This document shows positions 4,161 to 6,218 of a stretch of 64,000 nucleotides of DNA, piece after piece. A program made the position numbers and the translations under genes. Each line of letters starts with the position of its first letter. The stretch's first letter is position 1. The DNA lies in assembly GCA_030018355.1 (NCBI GenBank), contig JASEFN010000003.1, positions 209,939-273,938 of the forward strand, given 5' to 3'. The notes below the pieces were generated by a model, which saw nothing but the letters and a program-made list of their open reading frames with translations, was not told the DNA's origin and searched no databases. This DNA is from Caldisericia bacterium. Lineage in GTDB: Bacteria > Caldisericota > Caldisericia > B22-G15.

Positions 4161-5840
4161 TTAAATTATTAATTTGATTTTGTCACCTTTCTTTAATTTT
4201 GTTATATGAATTAAATTTCTATTTTTACTTAATGGAAAAATTAAATCTCCTTCTCTTGTCAATTTGCCAATAAAATACAAATTTAATTTATCAATTTCTT
4301 TTTCATTATTATTAATTGGAATTTTCAAAATTTTATTATTATTTAATTTTATAATTGCTTTATCATAATTTATAATTATATCTTTTATTTCATAATATCT
4401 TTCTTTAGGAACCTTATTTGAATACTTTACTTTACCAATAAATTTTGGAATTTTTTCTATATTTTTATATTTAAAAAGATCAAAATTATATTGAATAATT
4501 CTTGATATTGTTAATGGTTTTTTAAGAAAAACTTCGAAGGCAAGTTCATTTATATTAAACTTTTTCTTTTTCATCAAATCTATGAGATATTTAGAGAATT
4601 TGGATATTGAAGGAGGTCTTATTGGAGAAAGAGTTTTCATTAAAAATTTTTCTATATTATTTAAATTAAATTCATTTTTTTCAAATTTTTTTAAATAATT
4701 TATCCTTGACTCTAATTTTTTTAGTTCCTTTATTTTATTTTCTATTTCTTTGACTTTGCCACCTTTTTTTAGATTCTTTATATGTTTTTTTACCCCTTTA
4801 ATTTTTATTTTAAGTTCATTTAACTCATTAAATCTTCCATAATTTATAATTTCTTGAGTCCCTTTTACCATATCTTGAAAAGTTAAATCAATGTCTTCTG
4901 GTATTTTAACAAAAATTGTTTTTAAAATTTTCTCTGGATTTAATGGATAAAAATATTTTTTCTTTGTTTTTTCTATATTTATTTCATCTACAAAATTTCC
5001 ATCAATACTATTGATTTTTAAAAATAATTTATCAACCCCTTTTCCAACTATATAATATTCATAATCCTCAACTTCAAAAATAAGATTTCCAAAAGAAAGA
5101 GTCTCTTCAATTAATTTTTTAAATCCCTTTTTTGTTCTTAAAAATTTTGTTTCAACATCAAAAATAGAATTTGGTGGTTCAATTCCAAAATAAAAAAAGT
5201 CAAAGAGAATTGTTTTAAATATTGAAGAAACTGCCCTTGAGTGTGTATATAAATTTATATCATTTGCACCCTTTCTTGTTTCAGATAAGGCATTTTCCAT
5301 AAAAAACTTTGATATTTTAAAAATTTCTTCTCTATTTAAGTTAAATATATAATAATCTAATAAATTTAAAAATTTTATTCTGAGCAAATCAATTTTTTTG
5401 AGTTCTAATTTTTTAAGATTTAAGAAAAAATCAGAAATATAAACTGAATAAAATGGTTGTTTTCCTCTATTTGGTGGATTTGATGAATCTAACCTATCAC
5501 ATATTTGTAGCATCTTTATAAAAAAGTTTTTGTCAAATCTTTTACATTTATCAATATATTTACATCTTTCACATCCATGATGAGAACAGATAAAATTTAT
5601 TGGTGATATATCTTCTAATAGATCTGAAAAAGAAAAAAAGATTTTATTTAATGGTGTTCTTAAAAATTTATTTAGATTTTCTGGAATTTTATCCTCAAGA
5701 ATAAGAATTGCATGTTGATCTTTTACATTTAAATCTCTATCTTTTGAAATTAAAAAATGAGATGAAATTTTTCCTATATCGTGAAAAAAAGATGAGATTT
5801 CAAGATATTTAATGAATTCACTTAAATTTTTTATATCCAT
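4161..5840 (-). CDS. Unrecognised HD-domain protein with Cys cluster and Cas10-like motifs
   Basis: I cannot assign this 559-residue protein to a named family. The N-terminus has an HD metal-dependent phosphohydrolase pattern: HDIGK (H20, D21), H43, a His pair (H87, H88) and D115. A four-cysteine cluster (C85, C90, C93, C99) is interleaved with the His pair and could bind zinc. Around residues 187-206 the stretch TRKGANDINLYTHSRAV recalls the 'ND.SL..HS' segment of Cas10/Cmr2-type proteins. Residues about 338-390 are a Lys/Glu-rich coiled coil, and the C-terminus is beta-rich. No GGDD palm motif and no helicase are present. The ATG lies 6 bases past the tmRNA CCA end with no Shine-Dalgarno. 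No cas genes or CRISPR are nearby. The open frame is intact and full length, so the gene is real; its function is unknown. Confidence 0.8.
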   Translation of the reverse strand: MDIKNLSEFIKYLEISSFFHDIGKISSHFLISKDRDLNVKDQHAILILEDKIPENLNKFLRTPLNKIFFSFSDLLEDISPINFICSHHGCERCKYIDKCKRFDKNFFIKMLQICDRLDSSNPPNRGKQPFYSVYISDFFLNLKKLELKKIDLLRIKFLNLLDYYIFNLNREEIFKISKFFMENALSETRKGANDINLYTHSRAVSSIFKTILFDFFYFGIEPPNSIFDVETKFLRTKKGFKKLIEETLSFGNLIFEVEDYEYYIVGKGVDKLFLKINSIDGNFVDEINIEKTKKKYFYPLNPEKILKTIFVKIPEDIDLTFQDMVKGTQEIINYGRFNELNELKIKIKGVKKHIKNLKKGGKVKEIENKIKELKKLESRINYLKKFEKNEFNLNNIEKFLMKTLSPIRPPSISKFSKYLIDLMKKKKFNINELAFEVFLKKPLTISRIIQYNFDLFKYKNIEKIPKFIGKVKYSNKVPKERYYEIKDIIINYDKAIIKLNNNKILKIPINNNEKEIDKLNLYFIGKLTREGDLIFPLSKNRNLIHITKLKKGDKIKLII

Positions 5841-5846
5841 TTATTT

Positions 5847-6200
5847 TGGTGGAGGCGGCGGGAATTGAACCCGCGTCCATGGAATCTCAGTTTAAACCTT
5901 CTACAGGTTTAGCCTGTTTTTTCTTTCTCCTCCTCTCTCTTCTGAACAGGCACAGAAGAGAGAAGCGTATCCTCATTTCTTTTTACCTTTATCCCTGAGG
6001 ATGAGGATAAAGGCGAGTCTCCTTTTCGCCTCAGTTTGAGAGACCAAGGAGACAAGAATCTCTCAAACTGGCAGTAGACCTTATGCTACTGCAAAAGCAT
6101 AATTTGTGTTGGCATTTTAAATCTTTTGAGAGTTTTAGGGTCCTCTCAAACCCACCTGCTGGTTTAAACCTCCATTCCATGTCGAACTCCTTTCGCCCCC
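5847..6200 (-). ncRNA. ssrA: tmRNA
   Basis: tmRNA rescues stalled ribosomes and tags their unfinished peptides. On the minus strand the 5' end GGGGGCG (6194-6200) pairs with CGCCTCC before the discriminator A and encoded CCA (end at 5847), forming the alanine tRNA-like acceptor stem. The 5' arm continues AAAGGAGTTCGACA and the 3' arm contains GGGTTCAATTCCCG, both typical of one-piece tmRNA. The total is 354 nt. The tag frame lies at 6081-6113. GC content is clearly higher than in the surrounding genes. It sits 10 bases after deoB and 6 bases before the HD-protein gene on the same strand. Confidence 0.96.
6081..6113 (-). other. tmRNA proteolysis-tag reading frame (ANTNYAFAVA)
   Basis: After GATTTAAAAT on the minus strand the resume codon GCC starts a 10-codon frame ending in TAA, encoding ANTNYAFAVA. 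The AN start and the hydrophobic C-terminus fit known tags. The last three residues are AVA instead of the common LAA. Confidence 0.88.
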
Positions 6201-6209
6201 GCTTTATTT

Positions 6210-6218
6210 ATTATACCA
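6210..6218 (-). promoter_or_regulatory. Extended -10 promoter of ssrA
   Basis: On the minus strand TGG is followed by TATAAT (plus-strand 6210-6215), an extended -10 element ending 10 bases before the mature tmRNA 5' end. The -10 box overlaps the deoB stop codon. No good -35 hexamer is seen at 16-18 bp. Confidence 0.65.

Follow-up and report, generated by a model that had tools for sequence, protein, structure and literature searches.

The gene considered here lies in a 64-kb stretch of DNA (the window: the whole stretch that was analyzed, 64,000 nucleotides), with a tmRNA on one side and a convergent ABC-transporter permease gene on the other (Table 1). Its 559-residue reading frame contains H20-D21-x-x-K24, H43, C85, H87-H88, C90, C93, C99, D115, N193-D194 and H200-S201; every residue listed in the preliminary description of this DNA (HDIGK, H43, H87-H88, D115 and ND..LY.HS) is accordingly in place, and the lack of a GGDD motif stated there is confirmed on the protein sequence. 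The coiled coil and β-rich C-terminus that it proposed are also seen in the predicted structure (residues 321-384 and 471-558, respectively). Four related genomes contain orthologues with 50-75% identity, dN/dS is 0.08-0.26 (ten pairs) and no HD residue varies in a 22-sequence alignment: for these reasons the frame is not a product of chance, and the gene is under purifying selection. The absence of a Shine-Dalgarno sequence is uninformative, because one is seen for 26 of the 55 reading frames of the window.

Table 1. The HD gene, the parts of its product and the elements directly upstream (window coordinates)
Feature	Position	Strand	Remarks
CDS, stand-alone Cas10/Csx11-derived HD protein, 559 aa	4161..5840	-	stop codon 4161-4163; orthologues
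HD motif, residues H20-D21 (HDIGK)	5778..5783	-	invariant in alignment A1 and in 30/30 stand-alone sequences
CSHHGCERCKYIDKC, residues 85-99: HD ligand pair H87-H88 within C85/C90/C93/C99	5544..5588	-	H87/H88 invariant; Cys all-or-none by lineage
D115, putative metal-ligand Asp of the HD site	5496..5498	-	Glu in family f42
Segment aligned with Csx11 ETRIPSNDVTLWDHS	5238..5282	-	permutation described in PMC7689449, PMC3150331
Palm1/RRM-like remnant, residues 231-298 (β-α-β-β-α...)	4947..5150	-	models and profile match to Csx11
Coiled-coil helices, residues 321-384, with H353-x-x-N356 signature	4689..4880	-	model; H353 and N356 invariant in alignments A1 and A3
β-rich C-terminal domain, residues 462-559 (model strands 471-558), end LIHITKLKKGDKIKL	4164..4457	-	counterpart of Csx11 C-terminal 'LVHVSxLKxGDxxxVTP' module
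tmRNA (ssrA), directly upstream of the HD gene	5847..6200	-	HD ATG 6 nt past CCA; adjacency in 5/5 family genomes
Putative extended -10 (TGGTATAAT) of the tmRNA	6210..6215	-	conserved in four genomes compared, one of them outside deoB

What kind of protein is this? The PADLOC profile for Cas10c, the Cas10 of type III-C systems, matches residues 4-221 with E=1.2e-16; 21 of 22 family members scanned singly match it as well (best 1.5e-37), and generic Cas10 models are matched by three of the 22. The NCBIfam Csx11 model (TIGR02682) is also hit (E=8.9e-9), at 34.1 bits, well short of its curated cut-off of 249 bits. Aligned by hhalign with two genuine Csx11 proteins, the family scores 99.5% probability (E=5.9e-23), and the alignment extends through palm1. 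A Pfam search of the window protein yields no family at E≤10 and no match to HD (PF01966 or its relatives); a profile match to a characterized non-CRISPR HD family had been set beforehand as a possible refutation of Cas10 ancestry, and none turned up. A Cas3'' profile matches weakly across the HD motif. (A technical note: the sole match of a single-sequence scan of genome contigs, L002, proved misleading, being a response regulator of the HD-GYP type.)

Predicted structures point to the same relatives. An AlphaFold2 model built from the family alignment (pLDDT 91.3, pTM 0.90), when submitted to Foldseek, places nine Csm1/Cas10 PDB chains on top (best E=7e-4, probability 1.00), with only noise below them; the model of a relative, L048, from the sister class (f7) places 18 Cas10 chains on top (best E=1.6e-5), later matches again being noise, and contains a clean β-α-β-β-α-β palm1 at residues 250-322. 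The HD and palm1 fold of Cas10 (Csm1/Cmr2) is present in this sense: the Foldseek matches are all Csm1, and palm1 is seen in the f7 model. TM-scores to the Cas10 chains are low (~0.3), as expected if the correspondence covers only some domains. Searches of PDB sequences with the HD protein return nothing but noise, and the kinship to Csm1 is visible only by predicted fold. A fold without an HD site would have counted against the assignment; the model instead matches Cas10, which has one, the agreement being judged from overall fold alone. Descent from a type III-C Cas10 (Csx11) is well supported: profile, structure, motif order and co-linearity all support an HD protein that derives from Cas10, stands alone and has no GGDD palm, and the protein is a new stand-alone variant of Cas10, close to what the preliminary description had guessed.

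The HD domains of type III Cas10 proteins are circularly permuted, with a conserved histidine at the C-terminal and not the N-terminal end, unlike those of Cas3 and Cas10d (PMC3150331, PMC7689449, PMC10212523). The order in the window protein is H20-D21, H87/H88, D115 and H200, with no histidine ahead of H20; the domain is therefore to be placed with Cas10 and not with Cas3. The "Cas3/Cas10-type" order first proposed for it thus survives in its Cas10 half only, and an unpermuted Cas3''-type nuclease domain is not what is found, the conserved histidine being C-terminal instead of N-terminal. The likening of ND..LY.HS to a conserved patch of Cas10/Cmr2 was apt: H200, in this NDxxLxxHS motif, never varies and is matched in the alignment by the same histidine of Csx11. 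All 30 stand-alone sequences retain H20, D21, K24, H87, H88 and H200, and all but those of family f42 retain D115; f42 has Glu for the HD aspartate and lacks the N-D motif, which makes HD nuclease activity less certain there. Several Csx11 proteins, unlike the stand-alone family, are without their HD residues; indeed, a recognizable HD domain has been reported in about half of III-C systems, and a cyclase site in none (PMC11229360).

The four cysteines that had been noticed around the histidine pair behave as one would expect of a metal site: among the 30 stand-alone sequences the set (C85/C90/C93/C99) is complete in f1 (the window's own family), f3, f4 and f251 and wholly missing in f7, f239 and f42. 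This all-or-none pattern implies that one metal or cluster is probably bound and that the core function probably does not depend on it; judged from the residues alone, the cluster is a putative Zn or Fe-S site. In two sequences of one f3 genus, L043 and L045 (genomes G029 and G035), H43 and the CAHHGC motif are separated by a long insertion rich in Thr and Asn.

The stand-alone proteins are about 430-685 residues long; Csx11 has about 920-1060. Sequence and model alike lack its zinc finger, palm2 and C-terminal helical bundle, a palm2 remnant being found only in f7. It is also the f7 proteins that display the relationship best, since they keep, in order, Csx11 segments 3-298 (HD and palm1), 537-567, ~702-724 and 754-836, the two middle pieces being individually weak matches. 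Their C-terminal part aligns with the C-terminal half of Csx11 at E=1.4e-9 (hhalign, 96%; the control against the N-terminal half gives 0.2%). For the window's own family the match at the same place is weak (E=1.5e-3), f251 and f42 also align there weakly, and f3 has lost the C-terminal module too. The C-terminal kinship of the window protein is, then, weak when taken alone, and the strong match comes by way of the f7 sequences. Ordered Csx11 pieces from both ends in f7 are most simply read as the outcome of internal deletion: a full-length Csx11 would have shed its zinc finger, its helical bundle and the greater part of palm2. The coiled coil with its invariant HxxN (H353/N356) is a mark of the stand-alone family. 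A second, partial copy in one genome (L091:5849-6718; G052:C96) begins in the coiled-coil part and has no HD domain.

How widespread is the stand-alone form? Of the 54 species of the window's phylum, 24 have it, distributed by family as 5/5 (f1), 14/18 (f3, including two seen only as contig-end fragments), 1/5 (f4), 4/5 (f7), 0/15 (f2) and 0/5 (f5), and so do all nine genomes of a second phylum; we take the two phyla probably to be Caldisericota (the window's) and Coprothermobacterota. Every other strong match in a sample of 386 genomes is a full-length Csx11-type protein or a fragment of one. The gene is missing from all 20 genomes of f2 and f5, which belong to the window's class, but their sister families have it; a difference in growth temperature is one conceivable, untested reason. 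Two genomes, G024 and G015, have a full-length Csx11 in place of the stand-alone form. (In the former, at L054:6611-10264, minus strand, the open frame of a Csx11-type Cas10 includes, at its N-terminal end, ~250 residues that on visual inspection resemble a nucleotidyltransferase of the AbiEii type; this may be a real fusion or an artefact of assembly.) Families form clades in the tree; the deeper order is unresolved, and a single origin is consequently likely but unproven. No match to the HD family was found on plasmids, phages or viral contigs, or among PHROGs. The family is best regarded as an undescribed, stand-alone one, single-copy and vertically inherited; the literature searched contains no description of it, which is not proof that none exists.

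The neighbors of the HD gene, deoB among them, are ordinary genes that differ from lineage to lineage. The tie to tmRNA that had been suspected holds within f1, where the two genes are adjacent in all five genomes, in two genera, separated by 6 nt (the window's genome, G003 and G004) or ~30 nt (G001 and G002), and fails elsewhere: no tmRNA lies near the HD gene in any other lineage for which flanking sequence is available. The gene instead directly follows the lipoyl synthase genes LipS1 and LipS2 in f3, DUF58 and DUF4129 genes in f7 and an amidase gene in f239, lies opposite a phoH-HD operon in f42 and stands beside tRNA-Gln in f251. (At L037:6168-8022, in f3, the LipS1/LipS2 pair directly upstream has overlapping frames, possibly an f3 operon.) Such a context, constant inside each family but with nothing in common from one family to the next, is what a resident single gene would lead one to expect, and it argues against a general role connected with tmRNA. 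For the window's family, co-transcription of tmRNA and HD gene is inferred to be almost certain, and the tmRNA promoter is probably the HD gene's own, being the most plausible one. A scan for consensus promoters, which yielded no more sites than shuffled sequence did, failed to recover the extended -10. At window positions 6205-6215 (ATGGTATAATAA) the putative tmRNA -10 and the stop codon of deoB overlap.

That no CRISPR was in sight is true locally, a repeat scan of the 64-kb window having found no array, and untrue of the genome, which has a III-B locus ~61-69 kb before the start of the window and, on another contig, Cas1 with an array of ~100 repeats (this inventory comes from the families searched and the stretches fetched, not from the complete genome sequence). 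The III-B Cas10 (Cmr2) has its own LHDxxxK HD motif and GGDD, and the proposal that the HD protein is the missing HD subunit of that complex was rejected for this reason. INDEPENDENCE from CRISPR is seen in gene content: there is no RAMP match in 20 of the 31 genomes with the stand-alone gene, and neither RAMP nor Cas1 in ten, including G088 (99% complete, one contig), G014 (99%), G004 (96%) and G029 (95%). No array lies near any stand-alone copy, and no stand-alone locus has the RAMP neighbors that true Csx11 loci have. The stand-alone gene is independent of CRISPR genes.

What, then, might the protein do? We consider it quite likely to be a resident, CRISPR-independent, metal-dependent single-strand nuclease derived from Cas10/Csx11, its catalytic activity, substrate and cellular role all being inferred. 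An ancestral Csx11 would have lost its zinc finger, most of its second palm and its C-terminal helical bundle, and retained the permuted HD nuclease domain, a palm1 remnant and the C-terminal β module, with a coiled coil in mid-protein. The product would work without Cas1, RAMP proteins or crRNA, as a transition-metal-dependent nuclease on single-stranded nucleic acid, ssDNA being the favored substrate; this activity is assigned by inference from the Cas10 HD domain, which acts on ssDNA (PMC11229360). It would serve general nucleic-acid metabolism, with an unknown partner replacing control by guide RNA; the four-cysteine site may stabilize or sense, and the HD gene of the window's family would be expressed from the tmRNA promoter. 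A link to nucleotide second messengers, also entertained in the preliminary description, has nothing in its support: the protein no longer has a cyclase palm, and the subtype from which it derives, III-C, is itself without cyclase active sites (PMC11229360). Descent, the conserved site, CRISPR independence and purifying selection are matters of computation; that repair or turnover is more likely than defence is an inference, resting on prevalence and context only. It seems fairly likely, beyond this, that domestication is complete: a Cas10 stripped of its cyclase would have become a resident nuclease that two thermophilic phyla inherit vertically and whose cellular role has nothing to do with crRNA-guided immunity.

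Could it nevertheless be a weapon? The ancestor is an immune effector, and the HD site is strictly retained where many III-C Cas10s lose theirs (PMC11229360); both points favor a CRISPR-independent innate defence nuclease, one directed against invading or damaged single-stranded nucleic acid and triggered by infection instead of crRNA. This is unlikely, if not to be lightly dismissed: the gene is single-copy, at a stable site in each family, among ordinary neighbors and outside defence islands; it has no match on plasmids or phages; and it reaches all the genomes of a lineage, which is unusual for defence genes. That the protein serves in trans as HD subunit of type III or type I complexes of the same cell, encoded elsewhere, is scarcely credible even though a III-B locus and an array with Cas1 are present in the window's genome, since so many carriers lack RAMP, or RAMP and Cas1, since the III-B Cas10 has its own HD and since no copy has an array nearby.

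The close spacing to tmRNA (6-30 nt) and the shared promoter, in all five genomes and both genera of the window's family, could suggest an RNase or phosphohydrolase of trans-translation or tmRNA maturation; other lineages keep the same conserved core with no tmRNA nearby, and we regard such a role as very unlikely. Might the family instead be an ancestor of Cas10 that predates CRISPR, not a derivative? Deep-branching thermophilic hosts and an unresolved tree leave this a slim chance, no more, given that the family is specifically close to Csx11, a derived and cyclase-dead subtype, and not equally to all Cas10s, keeps the Csx11-type C-terminal module in order and is confined to two phyla. Finally, general membership of the HD superfamily would fit an ordinary phosphohydrolase (a dNTPase, HD-GYP or similar protein) that has converged on Cas10-like motifs; almost no weight can be given to this, because Pfam finds no HD match, fold and profile matches are to Cas10, and the permuted histidine is a hallmark of the Cas10 HD domain (PMC7689449, PMC10212523).

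If the protein is indeed a domesticated Cas10 nuclease, f7, f1 and f3 offer an intermediate series for how a large immune subunit may shrink to a resident enzyme, and a small Cas10-type nuclease of thermophiles (its activity inferred) becomes open to study without a crRNA complex. A practical consequence is that a Cas10 profile match from either of these phyla should not be scored as a CRISPR system.

Comparison with known systems places the stand-alone family nearest to Csx11/Cas10c (TIGR02682, PDLC01314), with which it shares the permuted HD domain and its ETRxPxND...HS motif, palm1, the C-terminal β module with LVHVSxLKxGD and the lack of an active cyclase. It differs in having none of the zinc finger, palm2, C-terminal helical bundle and RAMP-gene neighbors of Csx11, nor cas neighbors of any kind, and in possessing a coiled coil and, often, a cysteine cluster in the HD domain. 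The Cas10 proteins of III-A and III-B (Csm1 and Cmr2) have the same permuted HD order, and Csm1 provides the only significant PDB fold matches; the stand-alone proteins are without their GGDD cyclase and complex partners. The HD nuclease of Cas3 (Cas3'') shares the HD nuclease signature and a weak profile match, but is unpermuted. Where reuse of CRISPR parts has been reported, it mostly concerns entire systems in reduced form (type IV, Tn7-linked) or just the polymerase palm (mCpol). The latter, the minimal CRISPR polymerase, is a stand-alone palm (PMC8730458, PMC6452270), and so likewise a piece of Cas10 outside CRISPR, but the converse one: here the HD is kept and the active palm lost, so that what lives alone, in two phyla and in genomes with and without CRISPR, is the other half of Cas10, its HD nuclease. 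Csf1 of type IV-C, similarly a reduced large subunit with a Cas10-like HD domain (PMC8730458), has that domain at its C-terminus and is still a subunit of a CRISPR effector.
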